From Actinomycetota bacterium (lineage in GTDB: Bacteria > Actinomycetota > Acidimicrobiia > Acidimicrobiales > Ilumatobacteraceae), in the NCBI GenBank assembly GCA_009726095.1, contig WLMZ01000026.1, forward strand, positions 1 to 34,370: a stretch of DNA of 34,370 nt, read 5' to 3'. The notes under the pieces are model-generated. The model ran no database searches. It saw nothing but the letters and a program-made list of their open reading frames with translations, and was not told where the DNA came from. The position numbers were made by a program, and so were the translations under genes. Shown piece by piece: positions 23,346 to 31,238 of the stretch. Each line of letters opens with the position of its first letter. Position 1 is the stretch's first letter.

Positions 23346-23387
23346 ATGGACAACTCTTCACAGGACAACGACATGGAGGCCAGAGAA

Positions 23388-24494
23388 ATGTTTGGACAAC
23401 ACTCACACGCACATGGGGCACGGCGGTTGCGCCAGGTCGCATCTCGCATCGGCGCCGGGGCACTGCTCATGGGCTCGCTCACGGTCGGTACCGTTGCCGT
23501 CACCTCGCAGCTCGCCGCAGCCGATTCGGCCTACCCCGTCACCGCCACCGGCAGCGCCGAGGTCAACCCCGACGGCAGCATCACCGTCACTGTTCAGGGC
23601 ACCTGGCAGTGGGACCGCAACGACCCGTGCAGCGAGAACCGCTGGGGCACCGGCTGGGCCATTGACTGGCACGACGCAAACCAGGCAGGAAACTTCCTCG
23701 GCAGCATCAACGACACCGATTACTCCGTGGGCGCCGCTGAGGGCAACGACCTGAACCCGGCCGACAACGCCGTTCACTACGGCGAGCAATGCGATGAGAC
23801 CAACGCCGGTACCTGGGGCCCAGAAAGCCACACCTATGCCGAGGGCACCGTCGACTTCGCCCCCTGTGCAGTCACCTACGACCTGCACAATGGCGATACC
23901 GAAAGCGGAATCAGGGATGGCGACCTCATCGCCACCGGTGAGGGCTACAACGATGACAACTCGGTCGAGCACAGCTCGGGCGCCGACATCTGCGCCCCCA
24001 TCGAACTGGCACCGCACCTCACCTTGAACAAGACCGTGATCAACGACGACACCGTGACCGGTACGGCCACGATTGCCAACTTCACGCTCACGGCCACCCC
24101 CAAGGAGGGCGGCGACGCCGTCATCAACGGTGCTGACCCCGACGAGAGCCCAGATGCCGGCATCGGTGCCGACGTCGAGAAGGACGTCACCTACGTGCTC
24201 AGCGAGAGCGGCCCCGAGGGCTACGACGCTTCTGAGTGGTCCTGCGTCGGCGGCACGCTGGAAGGCAACGAGGTCACCCTCGCTGCTGGCGAACTGGCCA
24301 ACTGCACCATCACCAACAACGACAATGGCGATCAGCAGCAGATTCCGCCGCCGCCCGCCACCACCACGACCACCTTGGTCGCCGAACTGCCCACCACGGG
24401 TAGCTCGTCGGGTTCGACCGTCCTCATCGCCGGCCTGGGAGTTCTCCTCGGCTTCGGTATGACGATGTTCGCCCGCCGTCGTCGCCCGGCCTGA
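23388..24494 (+). CDS. LPTTG-anchored secreted surface protein with prealbumin-like repeat domain
   Basis: A 368-aa exported wall protein. Residues 1 to about 45 are a signal peptide with an Arg-containing n-region and cleavage near AAA-DS. Residues about 50-210 form a first domain with several Cys and Trp, not recognised (TGSAEVNPDGSITVTVQGTW and so on). Residues about 215-315 (HLTLNKTVINDDTVTG ... SWSC-like CVGGTLEGNEVTLAAGELANCTITNND) look like the SpaA/prealbumin-like fold found in actinobacterial adhesins. A PPPPATTTTT spacer leads to LPTTG at 334-338, a hydrophobic helix and RRRR. ATG 23388 has a strong Shine-Dalgarno. It starts 85 nt after the methyltransferase gene but has its own promoter and terminator, so it is a separate unit. 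Function: surface structure or adhesion (inference). Confidence 0.82.
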   Translation: MFGQHSHAHGARRLRQVASRIGAGALLMGSLTVGTVAVTSQLAAADSAYPVTATGSAEVNPDGSITVTVQGTWQWDRNDPCSENRWGTGWAIDWHDANQAGNFLGSINDTDYSVGAAEGNDLNPADNAVHYGEQCDETNAGTWGPESHTYAEGTVDFAPCAVTYDLHNGDTESGIRDGDLIATGEGYNDDNSVEHSSGADICAPIELAPHLTLNKTVINDDTVTGTATIANFTLTATPKEGGDAVINGADPDESPDAGIGADVEKDVTYVLSESGPEGYDASEWSCVGGTLEGNEVTLAAGELANCTITNNDNGDQQQIPPPPATTTTTLVAELPTTGSSSGSTVLIAGLGVLLGFGMTMFARRRRPA

Positions 24495-24675: not shown

Positions 24676-26625
24676 ATGACCGACGCTCAAGCCATCGACG
24701 CTCTCGGCTGGGAACGACGCACGTTCCCACCATCGGAGGCGTTCAAGCAGAACGCGCTCGTCAGCGACACGTCCATGTACGACGATGGTGCAGCGGACTA
24801 CGAGGGCTTCTGGGCGCGCCAGGCCGCTGACCTGCTCACCTGGTCAAAGGACTGGACCACCACGTGCGATTGGAAGCTTCCGGCTGCTCAGTGGTTCGTC
24901 GGCGGCGAGCTCAACGTGAGCTACAACTGCCTCGACCGGCACGTGCTCGCCGGCAGGGGCGACAAGGTCGCGTTCCACTTCGAAGGCGAGCCTGGCGACA
25001 CGCGCACCATCACCTACGCCGACTTGCTCGACGAGACGCAGCGTTTTGCCAACGTGCTGAAGAGCCTCGGCATCGTCAAGGGCGATCGTGTCAACATCTA
25101 CATGCCGATGATTCCCGAGGCGGCGATCGCGATGCTGGCCTGCGCGCGCATCGGCGCCGCCCACAGCGTCGTCTTCGGCGGCTTCAGCGCCTTGTCGCTG
25201 ACCGACCGAATCAACGACGCTGAGGCCAAGCTGCTCATCACCGCCGATGGCGGGTGGCGCCGGGGTGAGGTCTTCCCCCTGAAGCAAACCGCCGACGAGG
25301 CGCTGTTGCACACACCCACGATCACCGATGTCGTGGTGGTACGCCGGGGTGGCAATGAGGTGTCGATGCAGGACGGCCGCGACCACTGGTATCACGAGCT
25401 CATGGCTACGGCAGATCCGGTGTGCCCGGCAGAGCCGATGGATTCTGAGCAACTGCTGTTCTTGTTGTACACCAGCGGCACCACGGGCCGCCCCAAGGGC
25501 ATCATGCACACCAGCGGCGGCTACCTCACCCAGGTTGCCTTCACACACAAGTACGTCTTCGATCTGCACCCCGAAACCGATGTGTTCTGGTGCACCGCCG
25601 ACGTCGGCTGGATCACCGGGCACAGCTACATCGTCTATGGGCCCCTTGCCAATGGCGCCACCCAGGTGATGTACGAGGGCGTGCCCAACTTCCCGGGCAA
25701 CGATCGCATGTGGCAGATCATCGAGAAGTACGGCGTCACCATCTTCTACACCGCACCCACGGCCATCCGCACCTTCATGAAGTGGGGGGCCCAGGAGCCC
25801 GCCAAGCACGACCTGTCGTCGGTGCGTCTGCTCGGGTCGGTCGGCGAGCCGATCAACCCCGAGGCATGGATGTGGTACCAAGAACATATCGGTGGCGGCC
25901 GTTGCCCCGTGGTGGACACGTGGTGGCAGACCGAGACCGGCGCGATCATGATCAGCCCACTGCCCGGAGCCACGACCACCAAGCCCGGTTCGGCCACGTT
26001 CGCACTGCCGGGCATCGGCACCGAACTGGTCGACGAGAACGGTGAGCACGTTGAACATGGCGGCGGGTACCTGACGCTCACCCAGCCGTGGCCAGCGATG
26101 CTGCGTGGTATCTGGGGCGACCCCGAGCGCTATCACGAGACCTACTGGACCCGGTTCCCGGGTCGCTACTTCGCCGGCGATGGCGCCAAGCTCGATGACG
26201 ACGGGTATCTCTGGCTGCTCGGACGCGTCGACGACGTCATGAACGTGAGCGGACACCGCATCTCGACCACCGAGGTTGAATCTGCGCTGGTGTCGCACCC
26301 GGCGGTGGCCGAAGCAGCAGTGGTTGGCGCCAACGATCCCACCACCGGGCAAGCCATCATCGCCTATGTCACCCTGCGCGGTGGCGCCGAAGTCGACGAA
26401 CAGGTGCTGCGTAACCACGTGGGAACCGAGATCGGCAGCATCGCCAAACCGAAGGCCATCTACTTCACCCCTGATCTCCCCAAGACCCGCAGCGGCAAGA
26501 TCATGCGTCGACTGCTCCGCGATGTCGCCGAGGGCCGCAACCTGGGTGACACCACCACGCTCGCCGATGCCAGTGTCGTCAGCGAGCTCCAACGCCGCGC
26601 CAGCGAGGTCCCTCCAGAGGACTGA
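24676..26625 (+). CDS. acs: Acetyl-CoA synthetase (AMP-forming)
   Basis: A 649-aa acyl-adenylate-forming enzyme that makes acetyl-CoA from acetate, ATP and CoA via acetyl-AMP. Landmarks are the P-loop [27 protein letters not shown], and the hinge segment [37 protein letters not shown]. The C-terminal motif [14 protein letters not shown] follows; K608 there is the catalytic lysine and the usual site of inhibitory acetylation. Full length compared with the family (about 650 aa) and no missing motif. It is a single-gene unit between the strong terminator at 24555-24590 and the membrane-protein pair that follows after 96 nt. A GNAT gene is in the window but belongs to the PAT/bar type, not a protein acetylase of Pat type. 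Confidence 0.95.
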
Positions 26626-26721: not shown

Positions 26722-28734
26722 GTGGCACCCGATCTCAACAGTGAGCGCTTCCTCAGCACACTGAGTACTGAGACCCTCACGGACCCGCCCACGGTCGAGG
26801 AGGTAACCAACGCACTGCGCGACCGTCTGCGGCTGCGGTTGACCGTCCGCAACGTGGTTCCGGTCCAGCCGCTCTCGCCTGAGGCAGTTGTGCAGGAAGC
26901 ATCGCCACAGGTCGTGTGGAGCTCGGTGCTCGACTCGTTGTCCACGGGGCTGCAGATCGGCGATGGGTCCGACACCGAAGCTCTGCCAAAGGCGCCGATC
27001 GTGTCCTCGCCGTCGGTCGTTCCCGCCGCCGTCCCAGCGCCGCAGCCCTTCGTCCCGCAGCCCTTTGCCCCGCAGCCGTTCGGGCACCCCCAACCGCTGG
27101 CTCCACCGCCGGTGTCACCCACGCCGCAGGTCCAGCACCACACCGGGCAGATCTACGTCCCCGAGAATACCGATGACTATGCCAGCACCAACGGCAGCGC
27201 CAGCGCCAGCACCAACGGCAACGGCGACAGCCCGCGACTACCGACCTCGATGCCGACGCCACGTCTATCGACCCCGGTGGTTCCCTATCTGGGCCAGCCC
27301 GCCAGAACGGCCCCAACCCAGCGCGTCGTTCCCTCGCTGGTGGTGGCCAACGCGACCCGCACGCCACGCCCATTGCAGCGCCGCCGCCATCCCTTCAGGG
27401 CCTTCCTGTCGTTTCTCGTGGTGGCCTCGTTGCTCGGCGGCGCCAGCTTCACCGGCTGGTACTTCCTGATCAAGAACAAGGTCACCTGGAGTCAGGAATT
27501 GGACCCTTTGGCGGCCTTCGTGGAGAAGGTCGCGCATGCGGAGTTCGTTGACAATGTCAGCGTTGTCGCCCTGTCGGCGCCCGAGTACGAGGTGAAACTC
27601 GGCATCGACGTGTTGTCGCGTTCGTACATGGATCCCGACGGCAGCTTCGGCACGCTTCGCGCCGTTGGTCTGGTCAGTGGCACGCCGTCACCGAGTGAGA
27701 TCGGTCGTCAGGTGGCTGCGACGATCACCGCCTTCTACAGCCCGGCGGACCGCACCGTGTACCGCGTCGACGGCACCACGCCGGTGTTCGAAGTGTCCCT
27801 ACTGCGTGCCCTGACCGTGGCGCTGGCGGATCAGTCAACCGGCTGGAGCTCGAATGTGGACACGTTGAGCGATGCCCAGCGGGTCGGGGTCCGTGCGAGC
27901 GTCGATTTCGCCGGAGCCAACGTCGTGCTCGCCAAGTTTGCTGCCGATCCACAACTCCGTTCTCTGTGGAACGCCGAGACGCAGGCTCGGAGCACGGCAT
28001 TGGGTCTACCCGCCGATTCGCACCCGACGTATCTTGGGGCCGTGCTGGGGTCGTATGCGTTCGGCGCCACGACATCTCCTGCGCCAAGTCCCGAGAACCC
28101 ACTGGCCGGCATCACCGTGCCGCCGAGCGACGCTGCACTGTTCGATCCCGCCCGGGGCTCGCGTGCGGTACCCGTGAGCGCCTCTGTGTCGCCGTCAGCA
28201 GCGACGTCGCGGACGTTGGGGATGCAGTTCTGGTATCTGGTCCTGCTCCCAGCGCTCGGACCCACTGAGGCACGTGCCGCAGCGATGCTCTGGGCCGGAG
28301 ACGCCGTTGTCACCACCGTGAGCGCCGGTCGCGCCTGCGTGAACGCGCAGGTGGCCACAACGTCGCCCGAGGCCCAAGCGGCGCTCTTCGCACCATTGAG
28401 CCTCTGGGCGCAGACCCGGCCAGCCTCGAGCGCGGCCGCCGTCACGAATCAGGCGGGCAATGTGGTCGCCGTATCGGTGTGCGAACCGATCGAGGTGACC
28501 ACCCAGGTGGTCAGCGCCGACAGCGACACGATGCTGCCCTATACAGCGGCAGCGACCGAGGTGCAGTTCGGCGACGAACTGATCCGGATGGGGCTTCCCG
28601 TTGCCCAGGGAGCGTGGACGTGTGCGGTGCTCGCCTACCGCCAGGGCGTCCTCCCCGCCTTCGTTCGCGGTTCGAACGATCAGGCCCAGGCTGACGTGAT
28701 GCTCAACGTGTTGTCGTTCTGCCGAAGCTCCTGA
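26722..28734 (+). CDS. Single-pass membrane protein, degenerate metallopeptidase-like ectodomain (paralogue 1)
   Basis: A 670-aa protein, not previously named as far as I can tell. Residues 1-220 are cytoplasmic and Pro/Gln/Ser-rich with QPFVPQPFAPQPF repeats. A helix lies at about 226-250, followed by an ectodomain. The ectodomain follows the layout of secreted HExxH metallopeptidase-like proteins (FYDP...Y...HELTHALxDQ), here as AFYSPADRTVYRVD and then LLRALTVALADQ. The zinc motif is replaced by R362-A-L-T-V366, and the third-ligand site has D395. Later landmarks are PPSDAALFDPARG and a WAGD motif (W524-D527). Four cysteines (C539, C587, C634, C667) recur at matching spacing in paralogue 2. 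The GTG start is unsupported by a Shine-Dalgarno. A pseudo-enzyme or binding role is inferred. Confidence 0.72.
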   Translation: MAPDLNSERFLSTLSTETLTDPPTVEEVTNALRDRLRLRLTVRNVVPVQPLSPEAVVQEASPQVVWSSVLDSLSTGLQIGDGSDTEALPKAPIVSSPSVVPAAVPAPQPFVPQPFAPQPFGHPQPLAPPPVSPTPQVQHHTGQIYVPENTDDYASTNGSASASTNGNGDSPRLPTSMPTPRLSTPVVPYLGQPARTAPTQRVVPSLVVANATRTPRPLQRRRHPFRAFLSFLVVASLLGGASFTGWYFLIKNKVTWSQELDPLAAFVEKVAHAEFVDNVSVVALSAPEYEVKLGIDVLSRSYMDPDGSFGTLRAVGLVSGTPSPSEIGRQVAATITAFYSPADRTVYRVDGTTPVFEVSLLRALTVALADQSTGWSSNVDTLSDAQRVGVRASVDFAGANVVLAKFAADPQLRSLWNAETQARSTALGLPADSHPTYLGAVLGSYAFGATTSPAPSPENPLAGITVPPSDAALFDPARGSRAVPVSASVSPSAATSRTLGMQFWYLVLLPALGPTEARAAAMLWAGDAVVTTVSAGRACVNAQVATTSPEAQAALFAPLSLWAQTRPASSAAAVTNQAGNVVAVSVCEPIEVTTQVVSADSDTMLPYTAAATEVQFGDELIRMGLPVAQGAWTCAVLAYRQGVLPAFVRGSNDQAQADVMLNVLSFCRSS

Positions 28735-28793
28735 CCTGTTGCGGATTGTCTGATTCCGCTCAAGCTGCCCACTGCAACTGCCGACAAACAACC

Positions 28794-30689
28794 ATGAGTG
28801 ATCTGTCAGAGGCTTCGACCGAGCATGGTGATCGAGTCGATGGTCCAGTGACGACCGAGCTTGCTCCAACAGTCCGTGCGCCGTTTGATTTCACGCTCAG
28901 AATCGACCGCGGCCGCGCGCACCCGACCGAGCGCAGCAGCCAGGTGTGCGAGCCGGAGGTGGTTGCCGTGACTGGGGTTGCGTTCACGCCCGCGGTTGCC
29001 CCAGAACCGGCCTTGATCGAGCCGCCGGTGATTGCATGGGACCTTTCGTCAATCCCTGAACTCATCCAAGACGAAGCGGTCTTGCCCACATCCTTCGGCC
29101 AGCCATCGGCGCCGCTCCTTGTTCACGTCGATCAGGCGCCAGCCGTGTCAGCAGCGCCCGCCATGCCGACGCTGCCCAAACCGCCCGCACGTCCACCGGC
29201 TGCGGAGCCGATGGGAATGACGCGGTCCTTGGCGCCGGCCAGCGCCCTGGTGATCACCGATCGCCGGGTCACGGTGACATCTGGCCCCGGCAAGGGGGCC
29301 GCCACCAAAGCCCGCTTCAGGGGCCGGGCCATCGGCGCCATGATCGTGATCCTTGCCCTCATCGGGGCCGGCGGCTACGTGTTGGTCAGGCAACGCCAGG
29401 CCGCACAGAGCAGAGAGTGGCCGGCCCAGGTGCAGCCGCTGGCGACCTTCGTCGAGACGACCCTTGGGCATCCGTTCAAGAACGCTGTACCGCTGGTAAC
29501 GCTGCCGCGTGCCGAATACGAGGTCAAGTTGGGCATCTACGAGCTGGCTCGCGTCCCGCATGACGCCTCCGGGGGGTTCAGCGGATTGCGGGCACTCGGC
29601 CTCATCGACGCAGATCCCAGAGCAGCAGCAGTGGGCGAGTACGCAGCGCTCGAACGTAGCGTGTTCTACGACCCGGCGACGACCACCATCTATCAGGTGG
29701 ACGCGGCGGGCAGCCCCTTCCACGATGCCAAGGTCATCGCGGCACTCAGTGGAGCGTTGCTCGACCAATACAAGCACTGGGGCGCGGCCATGGGCGCGCT
29801 GTCGCCGAGCCAGCAGATCGGTTACGAGGCATTGCTCGAGGGAACCGGCACGTACGCGATCCGTGTCAGGAACAATGCTGACCCGACACTTGCTGAAGCG
29901 TTCCTGAAAGAGCAGACCGATCGCCGCGCTCAGCGTGATGCGCTGAAGAGCACCATCAGTCCATGGATCCTCGGGCTGCTCGATATGGGTGATGCCAGTT
30001 CGTGGGGCATCACGACCCGGGCCACCAGTGAGGACTTCTTCATGGCGCTGAACGCCCCCGCCAGCGACGCAGCGGTGCTCGATGCCGCTCGCGGTCTCGA
30101 GACCCCTCCCGGGGTGTCCACGTCTGACCCATCCACGATGGGCATGTATCTCTGGTACGGGGTGCTGGCCCCGGTGTTGGGGAGTGACGCAGCGTTCCAT
30201 CTGGCCACGGCATGGAGCGGCGATTCGGTCACCTATCGTCAGTCGGGCACACAGGACTGCATCCGTGCGTCGATTGCCGCCCGTGATGCTGCGAGCCTTG
30301 CAGCGCTCGTGGGCGGGCTGAACACCTGGGCCGCCACCCGGCCCGCCTCTGCCTCGGCCACGGTCGACGGCAAGGGCACGGTGGCCGTCGTCGAGGCGTG
30401 CGGGCCCACCGAGGGTGCGGCGTTGGCTCCACCCGTCGCGCCTTCGCCCGCTCAGTACCTGCAGGACCGGATGGTGAGAGAACAGGTGCTGTTACAACAG
30501 ATGGCCAAGCTCACCATGCCGCTCACCGCTGCGTCGGTGTCCTGCGCCGTGAACTCGTACCGTACCGATGGGGTGGTGGGGTTCGATGATGAGCTCCCCT
30601 CCCTCGTCGGCGATGCCAACGCCGTGGCCAGCGCAGCACTGGTGTCGAACCTGCAGGAACTTGCCACCTTCTGTAGCGCAGCGCGCTAG
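28794..30689 (+). CDS. Single-pass membrane protein, degenerate metallopeptidase-like ectodomain (paralogue 2)
   Basis: A 631-aa tandem paralogue of the preceding gene, 59 nt downstream. ATG 28794 is preferred to an upstream in-frame TTG (28746). The cytoplasmic N-terminal 175 residues are Pro/Ala-rich. The helix is at about 180-202 and the ectodomain follows. EYEVKLGI occurs at 241-248, as it does at 288-295 in paralogue 1. The signature VFYDPATTTIYQVD leads to VIAALSGALLDQ, where HExxH is replaced by A316-A-L-S-G320. The third-ligand segment ALLEGTGTY keeps its glutamate (E349). Cysteines C489, C536, C584 and C627 have spacings 47, 48 and 43, against 48, 47 and 33 in paralogue 1; W474-S-G-D477 matches the WAGD of paralogue 1. 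Catalysis by zinc is not expected. The function is unknown. Confidence 0.72.
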   Translation: MSDLSEASTEHGDRVDGPVTTELAPTVRAPFDFTLRIDRGRAHPTERSSQVCEPEVVAVTGVAFTPAVAPEPALIEPPVIAWDLSSIPELIQDEAVLPTSFGQPSAPLLVHVDQAPAVSAAPAMPTLPKPPARPPAAEPMGMTRSLAPASALVITDRRVTVTSGPGKGAATKARFRGRAIGAMIVILALIGAGGYVLVRQRQAAQSREWPAQVQPLATFVETTLGHPFKNAVPLVTLPRAEYEVKLGIYELARVPHDASGGFSGLRALGLIDADPRAAAVGEYAALERSVFYDPATTTIYQVDAAGSPFHDAKVIAALSGALLDQYKHWGAAMGALSPSQQIGYEALLEGTGTYAIRVRNNADPTLAEAFLKEQTDRRAQRDALKSTISPWILGLLDMGDASSWGITTRATSEDFFMALNAPASDAAVLDAARGLETPPGVSTSDPSTMGMYLWYGVLAPVLGSDAAFHLATAWSGDSVTYRQSGTQDCIRASIAARDAASLAALVGGLNTWAATRPASASATVDGKGTVAVVEACGPTEGAALAPPVAPSPAQYLQDRMVREQVLLQQMAKLTMPLTAASVSCAVNSYRTDGVVGFDDELPSLVGDANAVASAALVSNLQELATFCSAAR

Positions 30690-30749: not shown

Positions 30750-31238
30750 TCAGTCGCGGAAGTTGTTGAACTGCAGCGGGATCTCCAGGTCGGCACCCTT
30801 CAGCAGCGTCATCACTGCCTGCAGGTCGTCGCGCTTTTTGCCGGTGACCCGCACGGATTCGCCCTGGGTCTGGCTGCTCACGCCCTTGGGACCTTTTTCC
30901 TTGATGAGACGGTTGATCTCACGCGCCTTGTCGGAGGAGATGCCTACCTTGATGGTCAGGATCTGGCGCACGGTGTTCTGCGTGGCTTCCTCGACCTTGC
31001 CGTACTCGAGGCCCTTGAGCGACACCGAGCGCTTCACCAGCTTCTCCTCCACCAGCATGCGTAACGCCTGGAGCCGGTCCTCGCTCACGGTGCGGAACGT
31101 AATGGCCAGTTCGTTCTGCTCGATGGAGGAGTCGGTGTTCTTGAAGTCGAATCGGTTGGCAACCTCGCGCTGGGCCTGGTCGATGGCGTTGCGAACTTCT
31201 TGGCGGTCGACTTCGGAGACAATGTCAAAACTCGGCAT
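30750..31238 (-). CDS. yajQ: YajQ-family nucleotide-binding protein (cyclic-di-GMP effector type)
   Basis: A 162-aa cytoplasmic protein, full length for the YajQ family (two ferredoxin-like halves). The N-terminus MPSFDIVSEVDRQEVRNAIDQA and the motif NRFDFKNTDSSIE are family signatures. The end motif LKGADLEIPLQFNNFRD is equally typical. In Xanthomonas and Pseudomonas, members bind cyclic di-GMP and act on transcription; whether that holds in actinobacteria is not shown by sequence. The start ATG 31238 is fixed by a leaderless -10 box (31250-31245). It is a single-gene unit, convergent with the pseudo-peptidase pair and divergent from tRNA-Tyr. Confidence 0.92.
   Translation of the reverse strand: MPSFDIVSEVDRQEVRNAIDQAQREVANRFDFKNTDSSIEQNELAITFRTVSEDRLQALRMLVEEKLVKRSVSLKGLEYGKVEEATQNTVRQILTIKVGISSDKAREINRLIKEKGPKGVSSQTQGESVRVTGKKRDDLQAVMTLLKGADLEIPLQFNNFRD

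Follow-up and report, generated by a model that had tools for sequence, protein, structure and literature searches.

The window analysed here is a 34,370-nucleotide stretch of the genome of an actinomycetotal bacterium of the family Ilumatobacteraceae (assembly GCA_009726095.1, contig WLMZ01000026.1), and the subject of this report is a pair of genes, A and B, located between acs and yajQ (Table 1). The two are adjacent on the same strand, A beginning 97 bases past acs, and both products consist of a Pro-rich tail, one membrane helix and an ectodomain. An earlier note on this DNA had described them as tandem paralogues with a cytoplasmic Pro-rich domain, a single helix and an ectodomain, in agreement with the BLASTP comparison of A with B (E 2e-54, 150/476 residues identical, 32%). 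The ATG start of B (MSDLSEA/MSNLPEA) and the GTG start of A (VAPDL/VASDH/VSPDP) align across same-genus orthologues; a TTG at 28746, upstream of the ATG of B at 28794 and in a frame that is open too, is the less likely start.

No HExxH motif is present in the sequences of A and B. The note had seen it replaced by RALTV (362-366) in A and AALSG (316-320) in B, and had reported four cysteines with similar spacings (48/47/33 in A and 47/48/43 in B) and a common W-x-G-D. All of these were verified, the cysteines being residues 539, 587, 634 and 667 of A and 489, 536, 584 and 627 of B, and the shared motif WAGD at 524 and WSGD at 474. A fifth cysteine of B, C52, lies in the tail. Of the proposed frame of HExxH proteins, FYSP/FYDP and ALADQ/ALLDQ occur in both proteins and ALLEG (at 346) occurs only in B, with RASVDFAG of A opposite EALLEGTG of B. 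An active peptidase of this kind carries HExxH and a downstream Glu; where HExxH relatives have H/E/H, A has R/A/V and B has A/A/G, and the third-ligand Glu is Asp in A and still Glu in B. No family in the Pfam library matched A or B, the NCBIfam scan gave a single weak and irrelevant match for B, PDB sequence searches yielded no significant match, and the promoter and terminator scan of the locus was uninformative.

Homologues with acs and/or yajQ adjoining were identified in 47 genomes from nine genera of the Ilumatobacteraceae (41, the window included, and six added later, from a non-exhaustive search of 200 family genomes). The long-tailed homologues of this family sit between acs and yajQ, an ABC-F gene following on contigs that extend far enough, and we refer to this place as the slot. 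None of the slot frames of the 47 genomes contains HExxH, and only one looks broken (L229, draft genome G435). The genes do not always come in pairs: A and B are in tandem in six of the nine genomes of the window's genus (G000, G161, G318, G330, G341 and G364), and the remaining three (G353, G375 and G386) have a single slot copy that groups with A in the tree. Other genera have one slot copy each, and in this sample the duplication is therefore confined to the window's genus. A tblastn search for a remnant of B in the gaps between A and yajQ of the three single-copy genomes gave a best match of only E 0.28; one branch of the genus has probably lost B. In G375 and G386 the gap of about 2 kb (L049:3896-5959 and L050:679-2748) holds, by eye, apparent sigma-factor and acetyltransferase genes.

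The ancestry of the ectodomains in an HExxH family, which the note had proposed, is supported by profile comparison and by an outgroup-rooted tree. When the class was searched for homologues, 38 of 296 genomes had a match. In most of the homologues read out, EGDA lies downstream of HELTHALQDQHFDL, and the four C-terminal cysteines and W-x-G-D of A and B are there too; family members outside the slot have HELTHALQDQ followed by the downstream Glu. The 20 HExxH ectodomains of profile A2, all of which have H, E, H and the downstream E in place, aligned in hhalign with 17 slot ectodomains (A1) over 410 columns (probability 100, E 2e-44). NCBIfam NF038145 (Hvo_1808) matches 20/20 HExxH relatives (best 5.9e-39; HExxH member 1 scores 122 bits, under the curated cut-off of 200) and 8/17 slot ectodomains (best 2.3e-9); B of the window does not reach the 200-bit cut-off and has no match at E 0.1. 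Pfam PF20573 (DUF6782), a putative metallopeptidase family, resembles the HExxH relatives and not the slot ectodomains: it matches 19/20 of the former at E up to 1 (best 2.6e-9), one of nine scanned proteins with cut-offs shown passing the gathering cut-off of 27 bits (27.8), and 0/17 of the latter, A and B likewise being without a match. To judge from these profiles, the haloarchaeal Hvo_1808 family is the nearest named family of both the slot ectodomains and their HExxH relatives. The named-genome scan (80 loci kept of 321 confirmed) found HExxH relatives in Nocardioides, Aeromicrobium, Acidimicrobiales, Chloroflexota, haloarchaea and others. Several haloarchaeal loci have two copies, and an HExxH-less copy of Halogranum amylolyticum (L183:1410-2684) lies beside HExxH copies.

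Both trees are quick trees without bootstrap. From the 125 homologues used (L019 and L027 were omitted, as were L004, L005, L007, L009, L010, L013 and L031, which lie within longer loci), 14 short sequences or near-copies were dropped, and the first tree, of 111 homologues with the HExxH columns removed, placed the slot group on one side of a branch with a Shimodaira–Hasegawa-like approximate likelihood ratio test (SH-aLRT) value of 100 and counted five changes between HExxH and none. In the second, with 74 rows and rooted on relatives from other phyla, the slot group falls inside the HExxH-bearing Actinomycetota with four changes; two Acidimicrobiales rows, one of them the HExxH copy from the window's own genome, fall on the outgroup side. 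HExxH was lost at least three further times in the same family within Acidimicrobiia. A group in genus g4 (L072-L080 and L101; ~480 aa; nine rows in the tree), found at other loci and with ADLVxxLTxxxDDQ replacing HELTHALQDQ and with WGND, is a second pseudopeptidase group with a separate HExxH loss. HExxH-less homologues were also seen in other families (L132:5310-7088 of G227, L137:5351-7345 of G569, L138:5708-7222 of G199 and L020 of G212), with RALTYALRDQ, VAALGMALSDQ and HELARADYDQ among them; that of G212 has HELAR.

In the alignment of the 47 slot proteins, Ala occupies the place of the catalytic Glu in 45 and Ser in the other two, Arg stands at the first His place in most (25), and the Gln of ALxDQ is retained in all. 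Within the window's genus the four places read K/R, A, T/V and D in the A copies (D in 9/9), and A/G, A, G/S/V and E in the B copies (E in 6/6). If the site used different residues or a different chemistry, it could draw on the acidic residue at the third-ligand place, present in 33/47 proteins (Asp in 21, Glu in 12, other residues in the rest). We regard such altered catalysis as very unlikely, given that the place of the Glu is fixed as Ala, that no His stands at either His place in the slot rows listed, and that His does not exceed 30% in any column of the 47 aligned slot proteins.

The ratio of non-synonymous to synonymous substitution rates (dN/dS), calculated by the NG86 (Nei–Gojobori) method for close pairs, was 0.06-0.09 for the ectodomain of A and 0.09-0.10 for that of B, 0.14 for the pair G375-G386 and 0.10-0.17 for other slot pairs. 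As references, the HExxH pair G310-G425 gave 0.12, acs 0.05 and yajQ 0.03; the values for the window and G161 (0.19 for A, 0.24 for B) are unreliable, dS being above 1.2. The ectodomains of A and B are thus under purifying selection. Pseudogene decay was rejected on these ratios and the intact frames, and that the genes are relicts heading for loss is highly improbable: HExxH is gone and identity between genera is low, but the frames are intact, close pairs show dN/dS values of 0.06-0.13, and 47 genomes keep the gene at one slot with one broken-looking frame among them. Because A and B are nested among HExxH homologues, have lost the catalytic residues and are retained under purifying selection, they are almost certainly pseudopeptidases, i.e., inactive homologues of an HExxH family kept by selection. 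This loss and this retention make a non-catalytic role, as put forward in the note, the best reading.

Table 1 Features of genes A and B, the slot markers and the HExxH homologue of the same genome
Feature	Position	Strand	Basis
acs (acetyl-CoA synthetase), upstream slot marker	24676..26625	+	
Gene A, probable membrane-anchored pseudopeptidase, 670 aa, GTG start	26722..28734	+	open frame, paralogy, orthologue starts
Gene A tail motif VVWSSVLDSL, residues 64-73 (W[DENSQ]x[LVI] of slot proteins)	26911..26940	+	motif counts in slot, non-slot and held-out tails
Gene A predicted transmembrane helix, residues 227-245, basic residues on N-terminal side	27400..27456	+	hydrophobicity, flanks
Gene A ectodomain, residues 252-670	27475..28731	+	profiles, model
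Gene A HExxH remnant RALTV, residues 362-366	27805..27819	+	alignment with HExxH relatives
Gene A Asp395, place of third-ligand Glu	27904..27906	+	alignment
Gene B, probable membrane-anchored pseudopeptidase, 631 aa, ATG start	28794..30689	+	open frame, orthologue starts
Gene B tail motif FDFTLRID, residues 31-38, related to FDFKLRLG / DDFRLRLDSPLF of other slot tails	28884..28907	+	
Gene B predicted transmembrane helix, residues 180-198	29331..29387	+	hydrophobicity, flanks
Gene B ectodomain, residues 204-631	29403..30686	+	profiles, model
Gene B HExxH remnant AALSG, residues 316-320 counted from ATG	29739..29753	+	alignment with HExxH relatives
Gene B Glu349, third-ligand Glu retained	29838..29840	+	alignment
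yajQ (DUF520), downstream slot marker	30750..31238	-	
HExxH homologue of the same genome	L042:6858-8198 (G000:C126)	-	

The ectodomain models had a predicted local distance difference test score (pLDDT) of 85.3 and a predicted template modelling score (pTM) of 0.85 for B, and 82.3 and 0.81 for A, with helices and strands in the same order in both; the structure alignments comprised 42 (A3) and 41 (A5) of the 80 loci. Two strands are predicted to precede the long helix that holds the HExxH remnant, and the Glu or Asp falls in the next long helix, which we take to be the arrangement expected of a zincin with a Glu ligand. An identity of the C-terminal domain with TY-Chap/YbjN chaperones, an idea that came from one Pfam match (E 0.035) and insignificant Foldseek rows, was rejected: hhalign against six TY-Chap3 sequences gave a probability of ~0.1 (six of ten hits were used; two had been cut in the wrong frame and two had no open frame).

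The distribution of constraint differs between the two kinds of protein. In HExxH proteins the mean pairwise identity is 44% for the peptidase half and 34% for the C-terminal domain; the corresponding values are 38% and 39% in the slot core and 31% and 37% in deep slot genera. Constraint has moved from the peptidase half towards the C-terminal domain. Trp251 of the B ectodomain is present in 100% of slot proteins, at a place where HExxH proteins mostly have Leu (55%). One could read this shift, together with three residues of the B ectodomain that are universal in slot proteins (Cys 286, Cys 333 and Trp 309), as the mark of a passive scaffold, in which only the four-cysteine C-terminal domain works, e.g., by binding the envelope, and the peptidase half serves as a structural spacer. 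This is rather unlikely, since the peptidase half, at 31-38% mean identity and with Gln122 (47/47), Asp121 (44/47) and Ala118 (45/47) fixed, is not free to drift. The note had taken the conserved cysteines as a sign of the non-catalytic role, and this part of its argument failed: most HExxH homologues carry both the four cysteines and W-x-G-D, so these are ancestral family features and no pointer to a new role.

The note had also named regulation of a protease as a possible role of A and B, and had asked whether an active homologue exists elsewhere in the genome. Such an HExxH homologue was found (P0004; Table 1), with an N-terminus that we take to be lipobox-like, and A and B might bind and control it or another envelope protease; regulation of proteases is named in PMC11266112 as a common role of pseudopeptidases. 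We consider this unlikely. A non-slot homologue was detected in just one of the nine genus genomes, the window's own, and in none of three single-contig slot genomes (at most eight candidates were scored per genome, and most genomes are drafts), and HExxH copies also occur in two genera that lack a slot copy, g11 and g13. Since eight of the nine genus genomes and the single-contig genomes G002, G157 and G027 have only slot copies in the HExxH-profile search, there is a strong, though not final, indication that a same-family enzyme would not be needed for retention of the slot proteins. A partner from another protease family is possible. Neither acs nor yajQ is near the HExxH homologues in the fetched stretches of L042, L070-L071, L082-L085 and L098-L141.

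The pattern W[DENSQ]x[LVI] occurs in 27/43 slot tails (2.4 expected from shuffles) and in 1/48 non-slot tails (2.7 expected); four of 47 slot tails, cut or short, had been set aside, and non-slot tails under 60 aa were left out. It was also present in 4/4 slot tails fetched afterwards (0.28 expected), from four of six new slot loci, L225 and L229 being incomplete or split. It is a slot-specific tail motif, new here. A second, F-x-L-x-L-like pattern, set after viewing the sequences, was found in 23/47 slot proteins (0.08 expected). In 42/47 slot frames the most hydrophobic stretch lies directly N-terminal to the ectodomain with a basic inner flank; its placement differs in L049, L050, L052, L064 and L097. 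A copies keep W[DENSQ]x[LVI] in 6/9 cases, and B copies lack it (0/6) but keep the third-ligand Glu (6/6), which suggests subfunctionalisation or a two-subunit complex.

We tentatively propose, with a probability of about 0.45, that A and B are transmembrane pseudopeptidase adaptors or receptors. Both are inactive descendants of an Hvo_1808-like HExxH surface metallopeptidase, and each is predicted to be held in the membrane by a single helix that separates an internal tail from an external ectodomain. The ectodomain would act by binding and not by cutting: its target would be an extracytoplasmic polypeptide or an envelope ligand, held perhaps mostly by the disulphide-bearing C-terminal domain. 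A cytoplasmic partner may dock on the flexible tail through W[DENSQ]x[LVI]; the tandem duplication in the window's genus may have split the role between A and B. A fuller version, in which an ancient slot-fixed receptor senses an extracytoplasmic polypeptide with its ectodomain, signals to a cytoplasmic partner through the Trp motif and became an A/B two-subunit system in one genus, is doubtful.

Several results weigh against the adaptor or receptor proposal. The neighbours acs and yajQ give no functional hint. The motif W[DENSQ]x[LVI] was set after viewing sequences and is missing from 16/43 slot tails, B included. The tails evolve faster than the ectodomains (dN/dS 0.19-0.24 for A and 0.57 in one pair for B), the B tail at a near-neutral rate. 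Foldseek comparison of both ectodomains with the PDB, run without an HExxH control model, returned nothing at E <=0.001 and no zincin; for B, collagenase G appeared at E 0.47 (rank 29), and for A no peptidase was among the best 50 of 592 rows. As no HExxH relative was modelled, the missed zincin may be attributable to the library, the program or the fold. Elsewhere in the window, a surface-protein gene with a SpaA_2 prealbumin-like domain (23346-24494) lies upstream of acs, and a nuo cluster and a Methyltransf_28 gene adjoin.

Hvo_1808 of Haloferax volcanii is described as a cell-associated lipobox protein (PMC2945643); in contrast to it, A and B are without HExxH, and instead of a lipobox they have a membrane helix with a long tail. 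Among eukaryotic pseudo-metallopeptidases, ADAM22/23, FtsHi and Gone early have the catalytic motif replaced and the domain kept, as in A and B (REAAV in FtsHi4, WAAGR in FtsHi5 and EAxxD in Gone early; PMC11266112), but they belong to other peptidase families and the resemblance is one of working principle only. CspC of Clostridioides difficile, a pseudoprotease thought to be a signalling node (PMC6636752), differs from A and B in being soluble and serine-type, with no family in common. Pseudopeptidases have been described mainly from eukaryotes, and PMC11266112 names few prokaryotic ones in its abstract, introduction and tables. In open-licence papers we found only the lipobox work on DUF6782, PF20573 or Hvo_1808, and no report of a slot-type pseudopeptidase clade.

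Pseudopeptidases as such are a known kind; new is a slot-fixed, tail-bearing and family-wide bacterial clade with likeness to Hvo_1808, in which a pseudopeptidase is fixed at one locus across nine genera. Together with the at least three further losses of HExxH within Acidimicrobiia, the slot clade therefore provides a natural series for how a protease becomes a binding protein.

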